Source of the DNA: Scatophagus argus | Lineage: Eukaryota; Chordata; Actinopteri; Scatophagidae | Reading direction: 5' to 3' | NCBI RefSeq assembly: GCF_020382885.2 | Contig: NC_058496.1 | Location: 786,001 to 850,000 of the forward strand | Length of the DNA stretch: 64,000 nucleotides | In this document: positions 684 through 64,000 of the stretch, piece after piece | How positions within the stretch are numbered: the first letter of the stretch is position 1 | How the letters are laid out: every line of letters begins with the position of its first letter | Translations under genes and position numbers: made by a program | Notes under the pieces: generated by a model | Databases searched by the model: none | The model's input: only the letters and a program-made list of their open reading frames with translations | What the model was told of the DNA's origin: nothing

Positions 684-992
684 GAAGGACGTCCACTGTC
701 CATGTGAATGAGGGACAGATAAACAGACAAATGGACGGTCACCAAACAAACACAACCAAATCCTCCAGCAGCCGAGCGACGAGACGTCCGCCTCTCTGCA
801 TCCTGTGGCCGTGAGGACGAGCTGATTGGCTGCTTTTCTGTCTAACGCACGTATTAACTAACAAATGAACCAAACAACCAAACAAACAAAAAACAAACAA
901 ACAGCTCAGTAATGCCTAAATAACAAACAAACTTGTGTGATAAGTAAAATACTCTCAGCATATTAACTGGTATCAGTACTGTAGACAAGTGA

Positions 993-1041
<49 letters not shown>

Positions 1042-1457
1042 TGCTGGTGTGTGTGCTTGTGTGTGTGTATGTGTGTGTGTGTGTGTGTGTGAGTGCTGGT
1101 GTGTGTGCGTGAGTGCTTGTGCATGTGTGTGTGTATGTGTGTGTGTGAGTGCTTGTGCATGTGTGTGTGTATGTGTGTGTGTGAGTGCTTGTGCATGTGT
1201 GTGTGTATGTGTGTGTGTGAGTGCTGGTGTGTGAGTGTGTGTGTGAGTGCTGGTGTGTGTGCGTGAGTGCTTGTGCATGTGTGTGAGTGCTGGTGTGTGT
1301 GTGTGAGTGCTTGTGCATGTGTGTGTGTATGTGTGTGTGTGAGTGCTTGTGCATGTGTGTGTGTATGTGTGTGTGTGAGTGCTGGTGTGTGAGTGTGTGT
1401 GTGAGTGCTGGTGTGTGTGCGTGAGTGCTTGTGCATGTGTGTGTGTGTGTGTGTGTG
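993..1457. repeat. GT-rich minisatellite with a 36-bp period
   Basis: A pure (GT)n run is followed by GT blocks interrupted at regular places by GAGTGCTTGTGCAT or GAGTGCTGGT. The GAGTGC landmarks at 1147, 1183 and 1219 are exactly 36 bp apart, so this is a true higher-order tandem repeat grown from a dinucleotide. All long His/Thr or Val/Cys reading frames across it are artefacts of the repeat. Confidence 0.95.
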
Positions 1458-1569
1458 CTGCAGGGTGTGGAGCAGCTCTCTCTTTCATCCTCTGGCTGTA
1501 AACACAGGGCAGCAGAAACACTGACATTACTGAGCTGCTGGTTCCTCAGATTGAATTGACTTCAGTCGT

Positions 1570-8148: not shown

Positions 8149-10994
8149 AAAGATCATTTCCAGTACAAATACTTCAGAGTTGTACTTAACTCACAATCCA
8201 CCACTGCAGGTGATGTGAGTAAAGTAAAATAAGCTGGTAGAACATGACGCGACGTCGTACCTGCTGGGGTTTTCTCAGACGAGCTGAACTCTGCCGACTG
8301 CAGCTGAGAACAAACAGAAACACGCTCATCATCATCACCATCATCATCAAGCTCTGCTGTCATTGGACCGCTGCGTCCAGCATCACTCACCCTGGACAGG
8401 CCCGTCTTCGAGGACGCTGGGAAATAAACAGACTTGGAGGCGTTGGACCCTGCAGAGGACGGAAAGTGAGCGGGAAAATATAAGTTGTTAAGTGTTTTCG
8501 GTCTGTTTAAGATTCTGTTCTCAGATTGATTCATTTAGCTGAGATAAACTATCGCACTAAGACGAATTAACTCAAGTGTTTAACAGAGTTTATGTGTTCA
8601 AATGGAGCCACTTCATGCTGTGTGTATTCATCCTGACCACTAGGTGGCACCACAGCTGCACGCAGCAGGTCTGAATGTACCAGCATGTTGGCTGCGGTCC
8701 GGCAGGGAGCGAGTCTTCCTCCTCAGAGGGGCTGCAGATTTGTCCAACTCGTCCTTCAGGATGATTTTGCCCAGATTGGACTGAATCTAAAGAGAAGAGC
8801 AGAAATGAGCGACCGGATCCCCTCAGCGGCAGACGATCGTCGTCTCCTGTCCTACCTTGTTGAGTTCTTGTTTCTGAAGCACTCTGAGTCCCCACAGCTC
8901 GTCGTCCAGCTCTCCATCCTCCTCCTCATCTTCATCCCTCTGCATCTTCTTCCTCCACTCCTTCTCTGCAGAAAGGAGAGGAAACAAGGAGAGGAGAGAG
9001 GAAGAGTCTGTCAGCATTTACGCTTGAAAAGGATTTTCCGATCAGAAACCTGAAAAAGGGGGGGTCGTACCAATGACAGCCATGGAGGGGGGGCAGGGCC
9101 AGTAGTCCGTCTCGATCTTGGAGGGCTCATTGGGGTCTGGAGGCTGAGCTGCTGGGAACTTTGACGATTCAATGATCAGATCCACGATGTGTTTCCCCTG
9201 AGGGACCTGAGAGGACGACACATCTGTTCACACAGACACGCACACACACACACGTATGCACACACACACACAGCGCGTTAAAGCTGATTAAATGCAGTGC
9301 GATCGTGTCTGCGCAGCTGACTAACAGAAAACGTTTCTGCATCTTTTTTCACTCTGGATGAAAAGAGAACTTCTGCAGAACAACACAACACACTGTATAA
9401 CACCTGCAGCGGTGTGGCGTTCACTGACCGATGGACCAGTCACTTCCTTACATGTAACGCACCTTGTTTGTAGATGGGAGGCTTCTTATAGATGTTGGAG
9501 CCGTTTTCTGAAAGAAAGACACAGAAGAAGAGCTGATAGTGAATTACTGACCTCTGAAATGTGAGATATGATTGAGAATTAAAATAAACTATTTTTTCAC
9601 ACATAACTTAAACATTTGTGATAAAGTTCCTTTAAACTTGTTTGAGACATGGACAGAGTGGGACATAAACCCATCCAATCCCTCTCAGCCCCTCCTCAAA
9701 GCAGTGGACGAGCTAAAGAGCAGCTTCAGCAACACACTCATTCAGCCCTGCTGCTCATCTACCTACTGCCATCACACTTTACAACTCATCTACCTGTCAC
9801 AGCCACGATTACACACCTGGACTAAATCTACCTGTCACCTTTTGCACTCCGAAAAAATTTTATATACTGATTATACTGACTTTTTATATACTGATACTGA
9901 TACACAAGTGTCCTTTTGTGTATTTTATCCGATTTCTCTATTCTATTTTTATACTCAGTATTTCATGTCATAGTGTGTTTTATTGTATTCAAGTATACCG
10001 GACTGCTATGACAACCTAACTTCCCCTCGGGGATGAATACAGTAATAAATATCTATCTATCTATCCATCACTGCCCTCTGGTGGACAAACTCTGGTGGAC
10101 ACTCTGATGCTGCACTGAGATGAGATGACCAGAGCTACCAGATCAAAACAAACTTACCGGGCCTGTGGAAGTGCTGCACGGCGCTCTTGCTACCAGCCGA
10201 GTGTGTGTGCGGCGTGTTTGGTGTGTGCGGCGCGGGCGGCGTGTGTGTGCTGTGTGTTCCGCTGGTCTGGACGGTGGAACCAGGGGAGGAACCTCCAGGA
10301 GACCGGTTCTCCAGCCACTCCCTGGACTCCCTCTGGAAACACAGAGAGGACAGCTGCTGCTCATGACGTGCTGGACAGAAACCATCACACACGTAAACAC
10401 TGAAAACCTTAAGATAATCTGTACGATGACGACGGGCGGAGAGGAAGTCTCACCTCTGGGGAGGCAGGAGGAGAGATGGAGCGAGGAGACAAGGACCTCT
10501 GAGGAAAGAGCAGAAAAACAGATTCAGAGAAGAAGAACAACACACACAGAAACAACTGCAAGCTGTGAAGAAGTTCTCTGGGTAAACTGGGACCAGTTTG
10601 TCAAAGTGGGACCAGTTCAATGGGTTTGTGATGTCCACACATCTTCAAACTGTGCAGAACTGCTGGTGACATCATTTGGAGCCAGAGTCTGTGCAGTAGT
10701 GATCGGGAGGTGGAGCCGCGGTATCGAGTTCCCGCCCACACACCCGTCTGAGCCAATCAGGAGCAGTGCTCAGCTGTCAGTCATTACTTTTCAGAGCATC
10801 AAATAACTAATTAAAGAAGACTTAAAAGTGAGTTTTGTAACAACTAAATTCCCTCAGCTGGACACCACAGAAACATGACATATGACATACATGACACACA
10901 CACACACATGCACACACACACACACAGACTCACTCTCACACACAGACTCACGCACACACACAGACTCACTCTCACACACACACACACAGACTCA

Positions 10995-11045
<51 letters not shown>

Positions 11046-11074
11046 TCACTCTCACACACACACAGACTCACTCT

Positions 11075-11105
<31 letters not shown>

Positions 11106-11919
11106 TCACTCTCACACACAGACTCACTCTCACACACACACACACACAGACTCACTCTCACACACAGACTCACTCTCACACACACACTCACACACACACA
11201 GACTCACTCTCACACACAGACTCACTCTCAAACACACACACACACACACACAGACTCACTCTCACACACACTCTCTCTGGGGCTCAGCTGTGGCAGTGGG
11301 CAGCAGACTGATGGTTTATGTTGCAGTCGGACGCTCAGCTAACCGAGCGGCAAACGAGCCGCCTGTCCGACCAGCCGCAGCCTGCTGACTGCTGACTGAC
11401 TGCTTCTCTAACGTGTCGTATGCTAAGCTAAGATAAATTAATCCTCATCCTAAATTAGCCTTTAATGGCTCACAGTCCGCCTGTCAGTACTGTGTGACTT
11501 CCTGTCTGAGGCTCACAGCTCCAAGCTCTTCCTGTTACAGACCTTTAAAACGCCTCACAGATACAAAATACACTTTCATGCTGTGTGTGGTGTGTTCATG
11601 GGGGACTAATTAATCCACGTGGTACTCAAGTGAGTACTTGTATTGTATGTATATTGGATATTCTCCTGTCACAGCAGGACAGATTGACTTTAATGAAGAT
11701 GTGGGACAGGAACAGACCTCCAGTGGGCTGTAGCTGTAGTGCGGCTGGTAGATCATCAGATCTGGTCTCTCGATGTCCAGGATGGCTTTGTCTTTTGGTA
11801 ACGCCGCCAGGTCCTTATAGCCGATCACCCCGTCCTCCACTCTGGCCTGCAGCGAGCGACGGGGGGGAGGGATTACAGATGACTGCCTGAAGATTAATCT
11901 GAAGGATAATATAACTTGA

Positions 11920-23934: not shown

Positions 23935-26900
23935 TCAGGGAGTCCAGCTGATGACCCCGACGGCAGTCTGAGCGGCCCGCTTAATGTCCTGGTCCTCCTC
24001 TGCAGCCTCGCTCCTCACCACCAGCAGGGGGAGCTGTTCCAGCAGGAGGCGGCGGCCGTCCGGAGCTTCAGCCAGGGCGGTCAGAGCCCGCAGGGAGTAC
24101 AAGACGAGGGCCTTCATCCTCCTCCTCCTCTCCTCATCCATCTCTTCCTCATCGTCTTCCTTCTTGGACACCAGGTGGAGCAGGACGGGGATGACGTCCA
24201 GATTCAGACACTGCTGCTTACCTGCAGGAGGAGGACATTCACTGACAGTCTGCACCAGGTCTGCACCCTCACACCTGTGCTTCAGCTGCTCTGATAGGTC
24301 AGGTGCATCACATGGTGCGTTTAAGGTTCAGACAGAAGACAGTAAAAGTCCAGATTATCTTCCTCACAAACAGTGATGTGTCACTTCTCTCTCTTCACGT
24401 CTCTGACGGACATAAAACCTGCTGAACCCTCATGTCTCAGAAAATATCTGCTTCTACTCAAAGCTCAAGTACAACTCCCAGAGTGCATCTCACCCACCAA
24501 CATCCAATCACAGAGCTTCACATTCTGCTGTGTGCTAACAGGGAGCTAAAAACATCCAGCAATTTGAATCAGCACAAGTTCTGATTCTGGATCAGTTTGA
24601 GATCAATTCAGTAACCATGACAACAGCTGTTGTTCATCTGCTTCTTTTCCATAGCAACAGCAGCTGAGGCTCATGGGTACTGAAGTGTTTAGGCGCACCC
24701 ACCAAACTGACTGAAAAACACTTCAGCATCAACCTGATGGTGATGTCATCCAGGTGAGTTTCTGAGTTGGCCAACCAAAAGGAGGTCATTAACAGGAAAT
24801 GGTCATTCACAGCGAGGAGGAACACGGCAGCTCGTTGTCTCCCAGTGTGTGCACTTCACTGACAGCTGGAAAACAGAACGTCAGCCTGAGGTGTGTGTTT
24901 GTACCTGCGGTGGTGATCGCCGTGTACATGATGACTCCTGCAGCGTTGGCCTGAACCTCAACATCTTCATCCTTCAGCAAACCGACCAGGACAGGAAGTA
25001 CCGCCTCCTCACACACCTGTCGCTTCCCATCGTCACACACACTGATGGGAGCAGAGACAAACAAACAGTGAAAGTTTGCAGAGCTGAGCGACGAGGAAAC
25101 GCTAAGATGATGACGTTAACCTCAGGGCCATCAGGGCTGCAGCAGCTTCTCGGCGGATGTTCGGCGAGCGATGGCCGAGTTTGTGGCCCAGCAGCGAGAC
25201 GGCGTCAGAGGCCAGAGCCGGCAGAGCGTCCAGCGTGGAGCAGGAGGTGAGGGTGGAGAGGAGCAGCACCTGCACCTCCTCCTCCTCCTCCTCTCTGAGC
25301 TTCAGCATCAGGTGAGGAACCAGAGTGAGGAGAGCCTGAGCACCTGCAGGACGACACCGGACGAGTCACTGACGGTCTGTTCTGAACATCCGTCCTGCTG
25401 CTGAGCTCAGACGTTATGAGCAGCATTCAGTTTGACCTCAGCTCTCAAACCGTTTCACATCCAGGACCACAGGAGTGACACGAACTGGACCCGGTCAAAC
25501 ATCAACATTCACTGTGTCACTTAGTCCCCTGATGCTGGGGCCCCTGGAGCCCTGACAAAGGCCCCTGGACCCGCAGTTAGACGACCCAATAGACGCCGGC
25601 CCTGAGGGGGATTATGTGTGCACACTGCATTAGATATGCTGAAACTTGTTCTGGTCTCACGTTGTGAGGAGGCTGTGCTTACAGTCCGGTGAGGTTTAGC
25701 TACTGGAAACACCTGGTTCGGCTTAGGAAATGCCAGGTTTTGTCACTACAAACACAACTGAAAACTCTCCCTCTCAAACATGGAGGAGTCGGGCGGGTGG
25801 CGGGCTGAAGTGGGCTCAGCAGCGTCTCACCTGGCAGCTGTCGTGCACAGGTGTCACTTTAGTGCAGGTATTACTGCTGCAGAGTGAGCTCTGAGTGTGA
25901 CAACAAACAACATGCTTCATGGTTTAGTTCACATGCAGCCTTTAGATGTCTGCCTTCTACTTTAAAACACATCTGGACAGCATCTGGAAACACAGCAACA
26001 TATGGACTAATGAAAATAATCTGTCTCGAATGATGGCAGCAGGATAACATGATGAGGGTACCTGCAGGCAGCAGACTGAGGTGGTTCAGCACTCGGTGGA
26101 CGTTCTTCCTGCAGGAGGACGAGGGGTCGTCCAGCAGCTGACAGAGAGGAGGGAGGAGGGAGGAGGACAGCAGAGCCTGTCTGCAGGAGGACACACGGAG
26201 AGACACTAATGAAGACAACAGTGTCAGCAGTGTGGCTCAGGCAGACTCACTCACCACAGGTTCACCTGGACGTCTCTGCTGTGTTCTACTGCCACCTGCT
26301 GGTGACACCCAGTACAGCAACATTTCACAAGACTGAGGATTGTCTCCACTTGTCTTGTGTGGATCAACAGTCCTCTGAGAACAGATGGACTGTGTCCTCT
26401 GTCTGACAAAAGGCTGTTTCAGTCTGTCTGTCTGTATATTTACCTGCCGATGTAGTGGGTAGTCAGTGTGTGAAGCAGCTCGCAGGTTTTTGTCCTGACT
26501 GCTGGATTTTCATCTTGAAACAAAACCTTCAACTGCTCCAGAAAACCTGCAGAAGAAGAAGAAGAAGAAGTCGTCAGCACAACAGGAGTTTAAATGTGTC
26601 ACATGATGTCTTATTCCCAGTGGGGGGGTTGGATGTGAGTTTCACAGGTTTATTAAAACTGGGAGAAGAACTTTCTGTTTCAGTGCATAAACACAAAACC
26701 CTTCAAACCGGAGAGGAACATTTTGAGCAGAATCTGCTGTACTGCAGGCCACAGCAGAAGGGAGTGAAGTGTACTCAGATCGTGTACTTCAGTAGCAGGA
26801 CTACAGCGCGTTTTTACAGGAGAAATCACTGAAAACATCATCAATACAGCTGATCAGTGACTGATTGATGGCCTGCTGGAGTTTAATTTAGAACAACAAA

Positions 26901-31743: not shown

Positions 31744-39726
<7,983 letters not shown>

Positions 39727-40347: not shown

Positions 40348-41934
40348 AATGTCCTATTGACAAACTAGTGGGCCGCGTCTGTGTCATTTCTTCAGCTTCA
40401 CGTATGTTTTATCCAACAGTTGTGAAGAAACTTGAATTCACAAAACTTGTACAAAGCAGATAAACGCGAACCGAAGAGAATCGCGATGGAAACATTTTCA
40501 GGAAGAGACGGAAGTTTCTCTGAGAGGAAGTGACGTTTGGGTTCCGGCTTGTGAGGATTTAAGTGTCTGTAGCGTAAAAAGGTGTGACCTGAACCAAACC
40601 TAAACATTATTGTTACATATAACACGGTTATTTAGAGGCAAGTAGTACGTGAAACCAGAACAACTCAAGCCACACGTCATTCCAACCATCGCGAGAGTTT
40701 ACGTGAAGCACACGACAAACTCCATGTCAGTTGCCGTTTACATTCAAGCTAACTCCCTGGCTGTTCCTAAAGGACCACGAGTCCCTGACAGGTTTGTGGT
40801 TTATGTTATTAAACTGTGCTCGTAGGTGTTAAACTACCTGCTGGGCGTGTTTGCCTGTCGCGCCTCCATCGCAGCCAAGCAGTTTTCTGGCTCGTCAGTT
40901 AGCTTTGTTTAGCTAACAACAGCTAGCCGCTAGCATTACGAGCTAAAAACATTTGCTACCAGTTAACTCCTGAAATGTTCAAATTAAGGATTGTCCAGTG
41001 TGATCAAACGAATTCAACGCATTAAACTGTAGCAGCCCATTAAATCGGTAAAGTATAAATGAAATGCTAATGCTAATGATTACCTTTAACACTACATATA
41101 ACTGTAGTGGATTTAACGTTCCGCTGAAATGAGCGGATTTCTGTACTTCTCTCTTCATAGTCTCATCTTGTTTCAGGCTTTGATTTAGCTGAGTTTGGTA
41201 ACTGTTTCATATTAATCGCGTATCACGGTATTTTATGTTCTGTTATTCAGCTGACATAAGGAGAAAGCAGAGCAGATCTTCAGGAAATGAAATCCAGTGC
41301 CTGGTCTTCGGCTCAAGGTGGCAGCAGTTAATCTAAAACAGGTTTGATTTTTGTGTGTCCGACATTTAGATGCAGTCTGTCATCTCTCCTGTCAGTTTAG
41401 ACTGGAAGCACAAACCGGACTCGGTTAGCGTCTCCTGTTCTACAGTCAAATCACGGAAGATAAGATTAGATTAGATTAGATTGATTGGTCTTTCTTAGTC
41501 CCGCAGTGGGGAAATTCTAAAAATCCCTGAAAACTTCAAAAGATGTTTAACAGCTCACATTTATGATCTCAGTTTCTGATCCTCAAAAAATGTAAAGATT
41601 CTTTTAAACGTGGTTTTAAAAGTATCTGCTTTGTGATTAAAACCATTTCCATCAGTGTAGCATTTTATTTATGTTAAAGGACAGTTTGCACGAGTCAGGA
41701 GTTCATCTCAGTTCAGTTGTGCTGCAGGATGTCTACACTGGATTCTTCTTAAGAGATGATCTGATGCTCAGATGTGCTTTAGTGTTCTTCTTGATCCTCC
41801 AAGGGCTTCACTTTGTCTAAACTGTGTTGCTTCCTGCCATGTTCCCATCATGCGTTGCTCTGTTTAGCTGAAGTGACATCATCATGAGGAGGAGGCGGGT
41901 GGTGCAGTCTGACCTCTGATCTCCGTCCATCTGT
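40348..41934. other. Intergenic region and shld3 upstream sequence
   Basis: ETS-type motifs occur at 40509-40514 (CGGAAG) and 40526-40535 (GGAAGTGACG, an ETS/CRE composite), as in many TATA-less promoters. They may mark the shld3 promoter, which would imply an untranslated first exon. A LINE-tail relic occurs at 41461-41520. No other feature is seen. Confidence 0.4.
41461..41520 (-). mobile_element. LINE 3' tail relic with (ATTAG)n
   Basis: A short ATTAG array is followed by GATTGGTCTTTCTTAGTCCC and GCAGTGGGGAAATTC. This resembles the reverse complement of the tail found in teleost non-LTR retrotransposons. Confidence 0.55.
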
Positions 41935-43546
41935 ATGGAGGATGTGGTTCTGCACTACCAGGCTGGATCAGCTGCTGGGCTCAGCTCTCTGTTGGAGAGG
42001 ACAGAGAAGCTTCTGGAGTCTTTCCCCTGCCGGACTCCCCCGCCCTTCACCCCCTGGTTCCCCACTGCTGCAGACCTCCATCTGCCCATTAGACCTGCCA
42101 GAGCAGCTCCCGTCATCACCTGCTCAGGGGATTTCCTCTGTGAGATCAGGCCACTCACTCACACAGCACTGACCAAACCACAGAATCCTGAGGTTGATGG
42201 ACTTGTTGCTGAAAGACCTCGTGATTGTCTTCATGCAGAAATGACACAACCACCACACGAAAATCCACGAAAACTCAAAGCTGACTTCTCAGAAACCCCA
42301 AAGCATCTCCTCGCAGTCTCGCTCTTTAACCACCCAGAGAGAGACGTCCGCAGACTGTCCCCTGAAAAAGACAAAGATGGCTTCCCTGTCACAGACTCGC
42401 CGGTCAAACGGTCCTGGAGCATCTTTACACAGAAACGAGTTGTGCTGCAGAGCTCCCAGTCCATGTCCAAGCAGTTTCACCACCTGGTGTCCACCCACAG
42501 CCTCCACCTCCGCCAGAGGGCCAAGTGGGTGATCAGTCAGCACAACTGTGGGGCAGCGCGGGACATCGAACAGGTCAGCCAGTCAACTCATTTACAACAT
42601 ATAACACACTCAGCAAAGTGGAAGCTCACACACACACTTATTGTGTTACTGATGTTACACCAGAGCTTCAGTGGTCGCTGCTGGCGTCGCTGCTGCATTG
42701 CATGGTGGGATATTTATCCCAGCATAGTGACCACAGCTCACAGGCTGAAACAGTATGCACTCGTCTCTCAGAAAACTCTCCTCGTGAATCCATGAACTTG
42801 TGACATGAAGGTCTGCTGGGTCCTGCAGCTGTGTGACACTCAGCTGTGTCCACGCAGATCAGAGATCAGCTGGTGGGAATGCAGGGTAAATGCTGACATC
42901 TCCGTTTGGGCTTTGTGTTGCTGTTTCTGTGGATCTTTATCTTGTTTTTCCACTGTGCTCAGGACCTCCTCAGCTGATCTCAGTGTCGACTTACAGCAAG
43001 TTTTATCTGACCTGCTGGAGCTGCAGCCATCAGCGCAGTGACGGAAAATTAAATGAAATGAAATTAGTTAGTATTCTGACAACAGACAAATCATTTAGTT
43101 GTTTTTGAAGGAAAAAATACCAAAAGGCTTTCAGAGTCTCAGAGGTGGAAATAATCGCATACTGAATATTTCTATGAACATTTCTTCTGTTTTATTGTAG
43201 TGAATCAGCTGGATTTTGATGTGTAGCTCGATTTCTCATTTGTAATTCTTTTTTTTTGTGAAACATCATGAATGTGACAGGTGACTGCACACCTTCCTGT
43301 CTCATTTCAACTTTGCTTCATCTTCACCTGCCTCCTCTGCAGGTGTGGCGGGCTGTGAGCCGGGCCGTCCGGAGCTCCAGGTTACCGACGTGTAACGCCA
43401 ACATCCAGAGGGAGCGGGCGGAGGTCTGGGTGTTCTGCGACGTCCTCCACTGCGAGCAGGTGGGACGCCTCCTGAAAGACGAGCTGCAGCTGTCGGGGAG
43501 GATCAGCCTGTCGGTCGTCAGACTGGGAAACATCTTCAGCATGTAG
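41935..43546 (+). CDS. shld3: Shieldin complex subunit 3 (2 coding exons)
   Basis: SHLD3 recruits REV7 (MAD2L2) and bridges 53BP1-RIF1 to shieldin, which limits end resection at double-strand breaks and favours end joining. Coding exons are 41935-42573 and 43343-43546 (phase 0 junction, GTCAGC donor, CTGCAG acceptor), giving 280 residues; human is 250. The N-terminal half matches the family in VVLHYQAG, FTPWFPT and LPIRPARAAPVI, the last lying in the REV7-binding region. The C-terminal exon carries LPTCNANIQRERAEVWVFCD and ends RLGNIFSM, very close to the mammalian C-terminus. The middle is poorly conserved and polar. In the REV7-binding stretch, a proline present in human (PLRPKRSPP) is Ala here (PIRPARAAP). 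Confidence 0.9.
42574..43342. other. Intron of shld3
   Basis: A 769-bp intron with no recognised element. It ends in a T-rich tract and CTCTGCAG. An open frame continues past the donor to 42795, but it has no similarity to the family and the spliced form restores the conserved C-terminus. Confidence 0.7.
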
Positions 43547-45832: not shown

Positions 45833-47102
45833 CAGATCGAGCACACTAACTGACATCAGACCAGGGAAACATGACGCCTGTGGTCACTTTATGAGGCTCA
45901 CACCAGCTGTACCAGCTGTCGGTCTGCTGATGTTCAGCCTCACGAGTGATTTTGGTTCGTTTTGGGAAAAGTGTCAGTGGGGAAGAGTTTTTAGATGAGA
46001 AGTCAAGCCGTCCTGCTCTTAAGGGAAAAGCCAAACAACCAGTCTGCCTGCTTAATGTTTATGTTTCTTCATGTTCTCTGCTGTGATGTTATCAGCATCA
46101 TATCGCCTGATAAACACCTTTAAAGGAATGTCAGCGTCAGCTCAAAGCGATCCTTTGTGCCCGTAAGACGACGTGCAGGCTGTTGGCTCAGTCCTCTCGT
46201 TTCGCCCAGTGAATGTGCCCGTCAGCATCAGCCGCTGGGCCACCGTGAGCAGACGTGATGAGGAGTGAACGTCAGATTTAATTATTTTTTGTTTGATTCA
46301 GGTCTTAACTTCTCTGGTCTCACTCTGTGACAGCCCTTCATGTCAGACACTGAAGGTTTGTCTCTGACTAACTTCTGGTTTTCTTGGTGTGTTAAGTGTG
46401 TTTGAGTCCTGATCAACAGTCCTGAACCCAAAGACTCTTCGTTGGCTGTTAGAAGCAACAGCAGCAAATCCTGACGTTTAAGAAGCTGCAAAAAGCAGAC
46501 ATTTGACTGAAACTTTTCATCACTCATCAAAGACGATGACGATTCATTTTCTGTTTGGTCAGTCGACTGATGGTTGTCTTGATGAGGGTTGGTGGACCAT
46601 TTGAACCCTTTAGAGCTGCAGTTGTTGATTATTTTTCTTGTTGATTAATGTGATGATTTTTATTCAGTGATGAAAAATGTCCTGTTTTGTCCAAAACCCA
46701 AACTGACGATGAACTGATCGACCCTCCGATGAGCCGATCGCATGTTTCAGCCCTTCATGTTACCTGTCACCTGCTGTTTCCTCCCGCTTGGCGCTAAACT
46801 TTGCCCTACTCTCGTCTCACAGGCCGTCACCTCCACAGATGTGGCCTCTACCTCTTCTGAGACTCCTGTTCATGAACGGCGAGGACACTTCGACTGGGCG
46901 GCTGTGGCTCGGCCTGGAGGGATGACAGGACATTAGCAGACATGGAGACAGGAGAGACACGTAGACGGCTGCACACGTCCGTTAGTCTCAATTCCGCACA
47001 TTAGTTCCACTCAGGACAAGAGAAAATTCTATTTTCTTATTTTTGTATTCAGAGCTGTTATTGTTAGATATTGTGAAGCCATAGTGAGCAGCAGGCGTCA
47101 CG
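45091..47102. other. 5' intron of pik3r1
   Basis: The only clear element is a GT microsatellite with one TTGT interruption at about 45745-45832. A segment with an acceptor-like ACAG near 46823 could be an additional untranslated exon. Confidence 0.4.
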
Positions 47103-57451
<10,349 letters not shown>

Positions 57452-58972: not shown

Positions 58973-61479
58973 AGTCATGTCATACTTGAGATTTGTGTAC
59001 TGATGATTCATGTAAGCCCTCAGTTTTGATTGTAAGTTTGTCTCCATTGCTGATTAATCTGTCAATAATTCATCACTTAGAAAGTTTTCAAATCCAAAAG
59101 CAACAGTCAGTCTGTCAGTTATTCTCCCAGTCATTCAAATTACCAGAAAAGGAAGTGAAACATACTTTAAAAAGTTTATTTTTATTCAGAGTAACTGCTT
59201 AAAAAGTGTTTAAATGTGCTGTTGAGCCGCCTGACTCCTCGTGAACAACAGACGGACATCAGCGTCCGCCATCCGTCGTCTGATCCAGCTGATCTCGAGT
59301 GGGGAATTGGTTCAGATCCAACCAAATCAAACAAAACAAACTGACATCAAAGTTCAGTCTGTGGAAACTTCCAGTACAAACAGAACAGAAATGCTCTGAG
59401 AGCCCTGAGGAACTGCAGTTTAAAACCGTCTAACGCAGTTCATGCAGCTGCACCTGAACTCAGTTTAACGTGACGAACAGCTCAACAGTGTGGAAACTGA
59501 TGTGCTTCTCACAGACAAACAAGTAAACACACGACAACCTGCTGTAATCACATGAAATCAGTTCTTATTTGGGGGCATCGTCACTGCATTGGATTCATTT
59601 CAGATGTTCAGATAGATCTCAGGGGGTTTCCAGGTGCTTTCAGCCGTCAGGACCCAAAGCCTGGAGGTGTGGAGCTCATGAAGTTCATCATGCTGGGAGT
59701 CTGAACCCGTTCCCTCTGCACACGGGGATGAGGTCCACTGGATGTTCACCAGAGGTCATCCAACAGGGTTTTCTCCATCACAAATCATTTTTCTGTGTTT
59801 GCTGTACGTTTTTAGATGTGTGTGTGTGTGTGTGTCTGCGCACCGATGGCCCAGAGACAAACAGAAGGATGTTCAGATGAAAGCTGCCTTCGTTCACGTG
59901 GTTCCTGGTGATGATCTCATCGCAGACGTCCACTTGAACCAGTTGTGGGCCACGTTACGTACGTTCTGCAGCGTGGACCTCAGAGGACAGGTAACTGTTT
60001 TCATATGTGGAACTTAGTGAGGTAAGTTTGTTCAATTTCAATTTTTAGACGTGTATCTCAAAAGATGAATATTTGCCAGTAATTTGAATCAACTCAATCT
60101 GCCAAACTCTGTGACCTGAGAGCCCGTCTGGGTGAGACCGGCCCGGGACTCGTCTGTGACGTGTAATGAGGAATGAAACACCTGGTCAAACACTAAACAC
60201 ACCTTAAGGCTGACAAGCGTGATTAGCACATTCGCTCTGCTCGGGTGGAGGGGTCGACTCTGTGAACAGTGAAGCTTTAAATGAGGCACCAACTACTTCA
60301 CCAACATATTAATTAGCTGGTTGGATCAGCTGTTGGAGCTTAGTGGGTTTGCATGACTTGAGCTGAGTGTTTTCACCACCATTTCAGTATGAGGTTTTCA
60401 GCTCGTCTGAATCTGATGGTACTGAACTGGGTCTCCTGCTGCAGGTCTTTGAACAGCTTCCTCCTTTGTCATCGTCACTTATTTTTGAAATTACATTTTT
60501 GTTCTTGGAGAGAGTAAAGTACTGTTGGGTACTTAATACATGACCTGCTACTGCACTTTTACTTCACCAAAAACCGTCAAGAGTCAGTGAGGGAGCGAAT
60601 CTGAAATAAATGTGTCAACACAAGCATTGATTTGAGTGATTTTATTTCCTAATCAATCAAAAGGTTCTTAAAATAATGTGATTTGATATGATTACAAATC
60701 ATTGGAGTGCTGTAACAGTTAAATGAGTGTGGCTACATTGTTAATGTCCAAAATGTTTAAATCAAATCATAACATGATTTTAATAATGTAAAAGTGAAGT
60801 TAGTGTTAAGTAGAAGCTGAGTAGCTTCACGTGAGATGATTATATGTACACATAACTGACTGATAATGTGCAAATTCCAGAAATTTGGCACTTAATTCTT
60901 CAATTCAGTTAAACTCAACAATTTAAATGTCAGTAGATTTGCTGTCTGAAACTGTTCCACAGAGCACATTGGACTGATTGCGTGGCAGGTATTTTGACTC
61001 GTCACTGCAGGAAAAACCAGATGGACAACTGGACTGGACAGCCGGACCTCCGTTAAGTAAAATGCAGCAGTTACGAATTTACCTGTGAGTTTCCTGTTGT
61101 AACGTGTCAAAGTGCCTGTGCAACCTGCTCACTGTGTGCTGGAGCTCCACAGCGACAGCCATGACTCACTGATGATGGACCCAAATCACAAGACGAAGAC
61201 TCAGGACGTGGTCTAAAATCCATCCATTTTCTATACCGCTGGAGCCTATCCCAGCTGACGACGGGCGAGAGGCGGGGTTCACCCTGGACTGGTCGCCAGT
61301 CAATCACAGGGCCAACACACAAAAAATTGCAAACCACATGTGATTAATGAAACAGAAATGACTCTGAGACACCATGTGCTGCAGCGCCACATAACCCTAC
61401 ATGGCATCAGCCATCATGGAAGTGGATTCTGCATCAACTTTTGTTTCCGTTTGTTCCCGTGTCTTCTGTTCCTGTGCCA
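58802..61479. other. Intergenic region between pik3r1 and the RTX-repeat gene
   Basis: The region holds a GT microsatellite (58941-58971), a short GT run (59819-59836), MITE-like words at 60490-60560 and a fish dispersed repeat at 61216-61315. A 38-codon exon-like segment with a donor lies on the plus strand at 59878-59993, but I do not recognise it. It should also contain the 3' untranslated region of the minus-strand RTX gene. No clear poly(A) signal for that gene was seen close to its stop. Confidence 0.5.
61216..61315. mobile_element. Teleost dispersed repeat fragment
   Basis: The words CATCCATTTTCTATACCGCT, GGAGCCTATCCCAGCTGACG and CCTGGACTGGTCGCCAGTCA are a very widespread repeat in fish genomes. 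It lies only about 165 bp downstream of the RTX-gene stop codon, which ties that gene to a fish chromosome. Confidence 0.8.
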
Positions 61480-64000
61480 TTAAAAATGATTTTCTTTGTG
61501 TTTGTAAAATGATAACACAGTGGAAGAGGACAAGACTGATGCAGACAACCAACTTATGGCTAAAGACCAAACTGCTTGTTTCTGTCTGAAGTAACACTGT
61601 TGTAGCAGCCAGTCCACTGACACCTCCACCCCTCTGAAAACCAACTTCAGATGGCCACATTCATTATCATCACTGCTCCAGCCTTCCAGTGCAATTTTAA
61701 GAGTTGTTTGGTCAAATCCAAAGAAAGTCAGAAGAACTCCGTCAGATAAAAGTTGGCAGTCAAATACTGGTGTTGAGCTCAAGTACAAGACGTCTGTGGC
61801 GTTGTCCTTCGCACAGTTGTTAATGGTGACTGAACCGTGGTCAAAAGCCAACAGGTAAATGTCATTTCCATCACCCCCGACCAGGTAATCATCACCTGTG
61901 GACACCAAGATGTCACTGCCGTCCGAGCCTTTGAGAAGAGAACTTTCATAGCCCGACACCAAGATATCAGGATAGATGGTGCCAATGACCGTCTCCACGT
62001 CCTTCAACACGTCCCCCTCGGCATCAGCATAGTGGCCTTGTCCAGTCAGCAGGTTAACATAAACCCCTTTACCAGTGTCATGATCTCCCCGGTACAGAAC
62101 AGTGTCTCTGCCAGGACCTCCATCCACCAGATCAGCCCCTGGTCCAGGGATGAAGACGTCCTGGCCAGAGTTTCCCAACATGGTGTCATTTCCACCTTCG
62201 CCATAAAGAGTGTCGTCTCCCAAGTCACCAATGAGAGCGTCATCTCCACTTCCTCCTATCAGTGTGTCGTCTCCTTCTCCTCCCTCCAAGATGTCATCCT
62301 TCCACCCACCAATTAGAGCGTTGTCTTGAGCGTTTCCCAGTATGTCATTGGACTGAAGGGGACAGCCTTGCACTGTATGGACGTGTGACAGATTGTTCTG
62401 AGAGCTGAGGTCCAAACGGCAGTCAACCTGAGATTGTTTCAGAGTCACTTTGAAAGCTTCAATGTCAACGAAAGGCAAACCTCCGGTTGAGTTTTGTGAC
62501 TTCAGTTTAAAATTCACTCCATCAGAGCTCTGAAATTCCACATGCTGATGCTGGTAACCTTTATTGTAGTTGAGCAAACTCAATTCAAGCTGTTCCCCTT
62601 TTGTTGTGATCATCACATTCAGATCTTCTGTTGATGAGCTGAGCGCGACTTGGCTGCCATCAAGGAAATCCATGTCAACCAACACGGTATCAACACTCTG
62701 ATCTTCTGCAAAGTTATCAATCATTAAGTACTTTCCATATCCATGTTTGATTACGTAAGTGTCCTTTCCTTCACCTCCAAACATCAGCGCCCCTCCGGTG
62801 TAAGGATCGAGCAGATTCTCATTACTGTTCCCGACCATGATGTCGAAACCCGAGGAGCCGTACATTTCTTTCACTGAATCAGCCTTATCCATCATCATCT
62901 CTTTGCCTTGATGGTCGCAAAAGACTCTTTCCTCTTCTGAAACTTTGAATCTATAACTGAAACACCCAAGTGCTTCAGGTTTCTGGTTTCTGTAATCAAC
63001 AGTTAAGGGTAACATTAAAGACTCGCCACAGCTGCTGATGTTGGGCATCAGTCCAGCTGTTATTCCATCGCTGGTTTTGACCTGCAGGTGCTGATGATTT
63101 TTTGATTCAAACCAGTTCTGTAAAGTAACATCTTTTCTGCCGTATACCAAAATGTTGATGTTCTGTCCTTCACAAGTACATGTTATATGCTGATATTGTT
63201 CTTTCAGGAAGAGAACGTCCAAGGCTTGATCTGGCGATTGGTTGTTGATGGTTTTCACTCCTTGTCCTGGTGTGATGACGTACCAGTCCTCTCCTCCTCT
63301 GCCCTGAATGAAATCGTTTCCTCTTCCTGGTACAACAACATTGTGTTCTTTGTTTCCTCTGACGATGTCGTCGAACTCTGAGCCGCGGACCTCCGTCACG
63401 CTGTCAAAAGCCTCGTCCTTCTGGAGGTCTACCACCAGAGGAGACCGGGAGCTGCTGTAGTCGATGCGGTGGCTTTTTATGCACTTGGTGAACGGGTTTC
63501 TCTGCTGGCAGTCGGCCTTGTTGTCTGAGACTGTGAAAGTGATGAGATCTTTTGTGACCACTTGTAAGTGTCTGTCTGCTGGTGATCTGAACCACCTCAA
63601 CAAAGTCACATGGAGGGCAGTACTGCCATGGAAAGCGTTCAGAACAACATTATCATGTTGCACTCTGACTGTAAAAGTGTGAAGATTTGCTTCTATTATG
63701 ACCAGGTCTGTTTTAGTGTCTCTGGAGTAATTTTCAATCAGCACTGAAGACTGCTGCCTGTCTTTCACCATGTATATGTCTTCTCCTTCACCACCGATCA
63801 AACGATCTCGACCTCCTCCTCCATCTATCAGATTGTTCTCTCCGTTCCCGATGAGCACGTCATCATTCCTAGAGCCAAAGATGTTTACCACGGTACTTAG
63901 AAGTGGCTGTGACGTGTCCACAGTCTCTCCTTGTGTCTTGAACATCTTGTTAATTCCTCTGGCCACCAGCTGAACAGAAGAAGCCACCCTGGAGGAAATC
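61480..64000 (-). CDS. Large RTX-type (hemolysin-type calcium-binding repeat) protein, C-terminal part
   Basis: One uninterrupted frame runs from the window edge to TAA at 61482-61480, so the N-terminus lies beyond 64000. Numbering from the GTG codon at 63987 (not a proposed start) gives 835 visible residues. Five clusters of glycine-aspartate nonapeptides of the GGxGxDxLx type occur at residues 38-73, 202-237, 377-412, 549-631 (nine consecutive units) and 669-711. In bacterial RTX proteins such repeats form calcium-binding parallel beta-rolls. Clusters 1, 2, 3 and 5 are each followed by a beta-rich segment ending in a motif like LQNWFES plus HLQVKTSDGI. This resembles the bacterial HCBP-related domain. 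Residues 805-828 are hydrophobic, followed by a basic tail, so a membrane anchor is possible. Function is unknown. Ancient transfer from bacteria is an inference from the repeat type. It could belong to a larger toxin-like fish gene family. Confidence 0.85.
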   Translation of the reverse strand, partial: ISSRVASSVQLVARGINKMFKTQGETVDTSQPLLSTVVNIFGSRNDDVLIGNGENNLIDGGGGRDRLIGGEGEDIYMVKDRQQSSVLIENYSRDTKTDLVIIEANLHTFTVRVQHDNVVLNAFHGSTALHVTLLRWFRSPADRHLQVVTKDLITFTVSDNKADCQQRNPFTKCIKSHRIDYSSSRSPLVVDLQKDEAFDSVTEVRGSEFDDIVRGNKEHNVVVPGRGNDFIQGRGGEDWYVITPGQGVKTINNQSPDQALDVLFLKEQYQHITCTCEGQNINILVYGRKDVTLQNWFESKNHQHLQVKTSDGITAGLMPNISSCGESLMLPLTVDYRNQKPEALGCFSYRFKVSEEERVFCDHQGKEMMMDKADSVKEMYGSSGFDIMVGNSNENLLDPYTGGALMFGGEGKDTYVIKHGYGKYLMIDNFAEDQSVDTVLVDMDFLDGSQVALSSSTEDLNVMITTKGEQLELSLLNYNKGYQHQHVEFQSSDGVNFKLKSQNSTGGLPFVDIEAFKVTLKQSQVDCRLDLSSQNNLSHVHTVQGCPLQSNDILGNAQDNALIGGWKDDILEGGEGDDTLIGGSGDDALIGDLGDDTLYGEGGNDTMLGNSGQDVFIPGPGADLVDGGPGRDTVLYRGDHDTGKGVYVNLLTGQGHYADAEGDVLKDVETVIGTIYPDILVSGYESSLLKGSDGSDILVSTGDDYLVGGDGNDIYLLAFDHGSVTINNCAKDNATDVLYLSSTPVFDCQLLSDGVLLTFFGFDQTTLKIALEGWSSDDNECGHLKLVFRGVEVSVDWLLQQCYFRQKQAVWSLAISWLSASVLSSSTVLSFYKHKENHF
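62095..62343 (-). repeat. Nine consecutive RTX nonapeptides
   Basis: This is the longest calcium-binding repeat block of the RTX gene (residues 549-631). Units such as GGEGDDTLI and GGSGDDALI match the consensus perfectly, so calcium binding is probably retained. At the DNA level the units have diverged and are not a simple tandem repeat. The protein pattern is therefore held by selection and not by recent duplication. Confidence 0.9.

Follow-up and report, generated by a model that had tools for sequence, protein, structure and literature searches.

On a chromosome of the fish Scatophagus argus there appears to lie the final part of a large gene whose calcium-binding repeats are otherwise typical of secreted bacterial proteins. 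In the window, by which we mean the whole stretch of 64,000 nucleotides that was analysed, an initial annotation had pointed to a frame of more than 835 codons rich in RTX repeats; this frame (61480-63999, minus strand) proved to have 839 sense codons, from the first codon read at 63999 to a TAA stop at 61480-61482. Since the stop closes the frame on the left and it is still open at the right window edge, the window holds only the 3′ part of the gene, encoding the C-terminal end of a longer protein. Random sequence with the window's own stop frequency would stay open for 839 codons with a probability of about 2e-18. Among the 58 stop-to-stop frames of at least 110 codons, this frame stands well apart as the longest, the runner-up having 291. 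We favour, with a probability of about 0.62, the reading that it forms the 3′ part of a nuclear gene resident in the fish. This gene would encode a large secreted protein that, we propose, acts at a surface and whose multi-block RTX (calcium β-roll) C-terminal region is of bacterial ancestry and has been adapted to the host. The changes relative to bacterial forms suggest that the gene now works as a fish protein.

RTX repeats and module layout

PF00353 was the sole Pfam family matching the frame at E ≤ 1 (E 1.3e-23; 83.1 bits against a cut-off of 23; six stretches). With tandem GGxGxDxUx nonapeptides scoring above this cut-off, the frame belongs by its sequence to the RTX repeat domain family (PF00353). 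Eight NCBIfam families also matched, the best being 'RTX family hemolysin' (E 3.8e-44), and all lay far under their whole-protein cut-offs.

Nonapeptide units were counted by a six-point score at thresholds of 3, 4 and 5, with 1000 shuffles of the same residues as the control. The loosest threshold (3) gave 29 units against a shuffle mean of 17.5; because shuffles reach 27, this bare count means little. At the middle threshold (4), 24 units compare with a shuffle mean of 4.5 and a maximum of 11, and at the strict one (5), 17 units with a mean of 0.55 and a maximum of 5. A narrower consensus found eight units (shuffle maximum 4), and GGxGxD followed by a hydrophobic residue was found seven times (shuffle maximum 2). 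Spacing places 26 of the 29 loose units in five clusters, with 4, 4, 3, 11 and 4 units. The earlier count of at least 25 nonapeptides in five clusters is thus right when degenerate units are included, and the PF00353 match and the strict unit count bear out its description of the sequence as bacterial-type RTX.

63769-63879, minus strand: RTX cluster 1, four nonapeptides, residues 41-77 (unit score; PF00353 E 3.7e-6 for module M1)
63277-63387, minus strand: RTX cluster 2, four nonapeptides, residues 205-241 (unit score)
62752-62859, minus strand: RTX cluster 3, three nonapeptides, residues 381-416 (unit score)
62044-62361, minus strand: RTX cluster 4, eleven nonapeptides, residues 547-652, the most regular block (unit score, Pfam)
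61855-61983, minus strand: RTX cluster 5, four nonapeptides, residues 673-715 (unit score)

Four modules, M1 to M4, are built alike. Each has an RTX block, a Y-V/L strand and a glycine turn, then 'I-N' and 'D-V' strands, and its tail finishes close to 'HLQV..SDG'. Pairwise Smith-Waterman scores among them were 75-150 against shuffle means of 28-34 (300 shuffles each; z 6.5-26), with the M3-M4 alignment spanning the first half only. A profile built from the four matches, by construction, residues 25-158, 179-318, 368-500 and 659-798; elsewhere in the window its sole match, at E 0.79, is at chance level. For the RTX core and last module (residues 540-799), structure modelling predicted a parallel β-roll, the RTX fold. 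A single-sequence model of the whole frame (predicted local distance difference test score, pLDDT, 34.6) was discarded. The 839-residue part carries a net charge of -54, and its last ~40 residues are without RTX character.

63523-63927, minus strand: module M1, residues 25-159, RTX block and β-rich tail (module comparison, profile)
63043-63468, minus strand: module M2, residues 178-319 (PF00353 E 8.4e-4 when scanned alone, below cut-off)
62497-62898, minus strand: module M3, residues 368-501 (no PF00353 match when scanned alone)
61603-62172, minus strand: module M4, segment residues 610-799, profile match 659-798 (module comparison, profile)
61603-62382, minus strand: modelled RTX core and last module, residues 540-799, predicted β-roll (structure model)
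61507-61563, minus strand: moderately hydrophobic C-terminal stretch, residues 813-831, mean hydropathy 1.44 (hydropathy)

Bacterial relatives

Residues 572-701 were used as the query in a scan of genome contigs, which matched 340 stretches, 195 of them encoding a relative; the best 80 of these 195 were used and gave 79 loci. Together with five plasmid and two viral loci, they make up the 86 loci fetched. The top-scoring genome match was a Rhodobacteraceae metagenome-assembled genome (46% identity in the best segment, 43% over residues 543-713), followed by score, among the best 80 of 195, by Burkholderiales, Sphingomonas, Nostoc, Campylobacterales and others. Best-segment identity ranged from 32% to 60% over the 79 genome loci, the highest values occurring in lower-scoring matches, and over long stretches it was about 23-29% among the matches listed. 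The same query matched 10 stretches of viral contigs, with two short relatives (37 and 29 residues). Whole-frame scans matched 14 genome and two viral stretches, none of which is a relative. In plasmids, tblastn matched 205 records. A protein-level search of phages found no relative, and a single PHROGs match at E 0.064 was discarded.

The M1-M4 profile matched frames in 76 of the 86 fetched loci at E ≤ 1e-3, and 16 matches from four loci (L001, L003, L004 and L066) span 105 or more of the profile's 135 positions and take in the tail. These large bacterial calcium-binding RTX proteins, from Leisingera, Agrobacterium, Haliovirga and Pseudomonas mangrovi, have the same module of RTX block, glycine turn and β tail, and both they and the fish modules often end near an aromatic strand and a D-G turn. 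For a module tree, the 32 module matches that passed the filter were reduced to 19, at most four per locus, and joined by the four fish modules. The tree has long branches and one starred branch and resolved no donor; the grouping of the fish modules took three changes, against one change in 0% of 200 bootstrap trees, and 110 of 500 shuffles were as low. As the relatives are taxonomically scattered and the tree is unresolved, no donor can be named.

Separately, residues 351-475 matched in six E. coli plasmids at 28% identity. In one of them, from wastewater (L087:1489-8182), the matching 'hypothetical' protein lies between a toxin-activating acyltransferase and type I secretion genes, which by annotation makes this an RTX-type locus.

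Cysteines, sequons and base composition

The frame contains 13 cysteines among 839 residues (1.55%), seven of which sit in the three inter-module linkers in groups of two, three and two.

63481-63510, minus strand: linker cysteines C164 and C173, between M1 and M2 (residue count)
62917-63030, minus strand: linker cysteines C324, C346 and C361, between M2 and M3 (residue count)
62362-62421, minus strand: linker cysteines C527 and C546, between M3 and the RTX core (residue count)

A matching frame was present in 84 of the 86 fetched loci, and 64 of these 84 had no cysteine in the segment around the match (median segment length 723, shortest 283); the highest share was 1.47%. The frame also holds seven N-glycosylation sequons, a motif that arises by chance too. 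Its CpG observed/expected ratio is 0.49 against 0.57 for the window, with 25 of 123 window slices lower, and the median of the 86 fetched loci is 1.16. Arginine is encoded by AGA or AGG in 20 of 27 cases.

Among the closest known systems is the RTX domain of adenylate cyclase toxin (PDB 7usl, 6sus, 7rah). According to the accessible text of PMC8953716, this bacterial toxin has 40-45 repeats in five blocks of 8-10, compared with 26 in clusters of 4, 4, 3, 11 and 4 in the fish part, and RTX toxins are without cysteine, in contrast to the 13 found here. Because a cysteine-free chain is one feature of type I-secreted RTX toxins, the fish frame should not be filed as one, although it may still work like an RTX domain. 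Such toxins also have a type I signal at the C-terminus and, next to the gene, genes for an ABC transporter and an adaptor; the neighbours identified here are pik3r1 and ppp2ca. The features of pore-forming RTX toxins, a pore-forming domain and acylated lysines, would be encoded beyond base 64000.

When scanned alone, the M3 region matched DUF3491 (PF11996) at 14.4 bits, under the cut-off of 25 (E 0.039); the Pfam scan gave no PF11996 match in the whole frame or in its other pieces. Lymphostatin also turned up as a predicted fold match to the modelled region, its DUF3491 delivery region being 15% identical to the fish region, and RTX and DUF3491 domains co-occur in cifB proteins (accessible text of PMC12445526). 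Given the weak domain match, the fold match and this co-occurrence, an upstream toxin-like or adhesive part is worth looking for, and we treat the DUF3491 link as a lead only. The lymphostatin-type DUF3491 members named in the accessible literature are bacterial. It is possible, as a tentative refinement compatible with a resident gene, that a host-owned toxin-like effector has this frame as its calcium-folded tail, with a pore-forming or large-toxin delivery part upstream.

Genomic setting

The initial annotation placed the RTX gene beside pik3r1, in agreement with a p85-alpha (pik3r1) SH3 exon at 47088-47420 (phmmer, E 1.6e-28) and plus-strand SH2-type motifs, identified by motif patterns, at 53938-54084, 54166-54468 and 56976-57170; the pik3r1 exons extend from 47088 to about 57170. 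The RTX gene and pik3r1 are convergent, the RTX frame being downstream and on the other strand. An exon of the PP2A catalytic subunit (ppp2ca) was found at 34756-35097 (E 7.6e-36), and the presence of both sets of exons in the same sequence marks an animal locus. Beside the RTX frame, pik3r1 and ppp2ca are the genes identified in the window, in which no scan aimed at transporters was made.

The stretch at 61217-61335 resembles what we take to be a repeat very common in fishes; with up to three mismatches allowed, a search with 24 bases of it found no further copy in the window. Promoter-like and terminator-like sites and tandem repeats near the RTX frame were uninformative, and poly(A)-type signals 0.7-0.9 kb past its stop are too distant to mean much. 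Rfam and transfer RNA scans of the window gave zero matches. The second-longest frame, of 291 codons (41920-42792, plus strand), is without a Pfam match at E 0.01. A 121-codon frame (25874-26236, minus strand) with weak Armadillo (E 3.8e-4) and HEAT (E 4.7e-3) matches is perhaps an exon of a repeat protein, and frames with histidine-threonine runs (857-1561, minus strand; 10848-11385, plus strand), as from CA/TG microsatellites, are probably not genes.

Origin of the RTX gene

The case for a resident gene is built on the RTX blocks, the block-and-tail module, the predicted β-roll, the open frame, the window-like base composition, the cysteines and the sequons. Several points weigh against it. 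No intron is visible in 2.5 kb, the gene is known here from one genome window alone, and its 5′ end, where a signal peptide would be encoded, lies beyond the window. M1 to M3 lack a confident structure model, and the module tree neither joins the fish modules to a donor nor groups all four. CpG is as scarce as in the frame in three of the 86 fetched loci, which come from two genomes, and the pik3r1 and ppp2ca exons of the window show no CpG depletion (observed/expected 0.94 and 0.82). Low CpG therefore belongs to the window background and not to its conserved exons, and base composition is no proof of long residence.

The lack of a visible intron, a frame that runs past the window edge and the standing of RTX as a bacterial hallmark would all fit bacterial contamination or misassembly in the fish contig. 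The initial annotation called a contaminant contig unlikely, and we consider this reading highly improbable, given the animal exons in the contig, a window-like CpG and AGA/AGG-rich arginine codons that differ from most fetched loci, and a cysteine share exceeding that of all 84 related segments. At the sensitivities used, plasmids, phages and E. coli genomes gave no DNA-level match, and no close protein relative appeared in phages, plasmids or the genome scan. Near-identity to one bacterial genome, named at the outset as the mark of a contaminant, contrasts with the values obtained: below 60% at the best place in all 205 plasmid records and 46% in the top-scoring genome match. A recently dead copy, its frame an intact remnant that no longer makes protein, is also improbable. 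It would accord with the 5′ part lying outside the window and with the lack of RTX character in the last ~40 residues, but 839 open codons are scarcely expected by chance, and an unselected frame should have gathered stops if its present composition was acquired after transfer. Rather unlikely, too, is a gene old in animals or acquired from another eukaryote, not directly from a bacterium by fish. Its high divergence from the bacterial relatives found (~23-29% identity over long stretches, 43-46% in the top-scoring match) and cysteine-bearing linkers fit a long eukaryotic history, whereas whole modules remain recognisably bacterial in layout, which fits any bacterial origin however old.

Discussion

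For a resident gene of bacterial ancestry, we propose the following mechanism. The chain would enter the secretory pathway, and inter-module cysteines could pair in the endoplasmic reticulum, locking neighbouring modules together. A vertebrate chain entering this compartment meets high calcium during synthesis, and calcium could therefore drive RTX folding there; the β-rolls would fold where calcium is high, whether in the lumen or extracellularly. Bacterial RTX repeats stay unfolded inside the cell, where calcium is low, and fold once export brings them into calcium (accessible text of PMC3034196), and adenylate cyclase toxin needs the linker after each RTX block for calcium folding (accessible text of PMC8953716). 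The product would be a stiff, acidic extracellular arm for calcium-dependent binding and spacing, carrying the N-terminal part encoded beyond base 64000. Its site would most likely be an epithelial, mucus or egg surface, possibly acting against microbes, and a role in defence, mucus or egg coat may be envisaged. A bolder version, which we rate as doubtful, has a bacterial multi-block RTX protein captured by a fish lineage and converted into a secreted host effector. Cysteines added between the calcium rolls would let it fold in the animal secretory pathway, and at mucosal surfaces it would serve, as the bacterial original does, as a calcium-triggered weapon or anchor.

Bacteria-to-vertebrate gene transfers with good support are few, and RTX is presumably no ordinary vertebrate domain. 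An EcKinase-like gene that passed from marine bacteria to fishes sets a precedent, since fish genomes have retained this bacterial gene and express it (accessible text of PMC4687049); its protein is unrelated to the RTX frame, and the paper's main text contains no mention of RTX, hemolysin or calcium. In the titles and abstract openings of open-licence literature, we found no report of an RTX gene in a fish genome. Fish proteins predicted to contain RTX, DUF3491 or large-toxin domains are presumably present in public protein databases, and those of the RTX kind may well sit there unnamed. The bacterial RTX domain is designed for unfolded export followed by folding in outside calcium. If our reading is true, an RTX protein working in a vertebrate would mean that a domain built for unfolded bacterial export is reusable in the animal secretory pathway.
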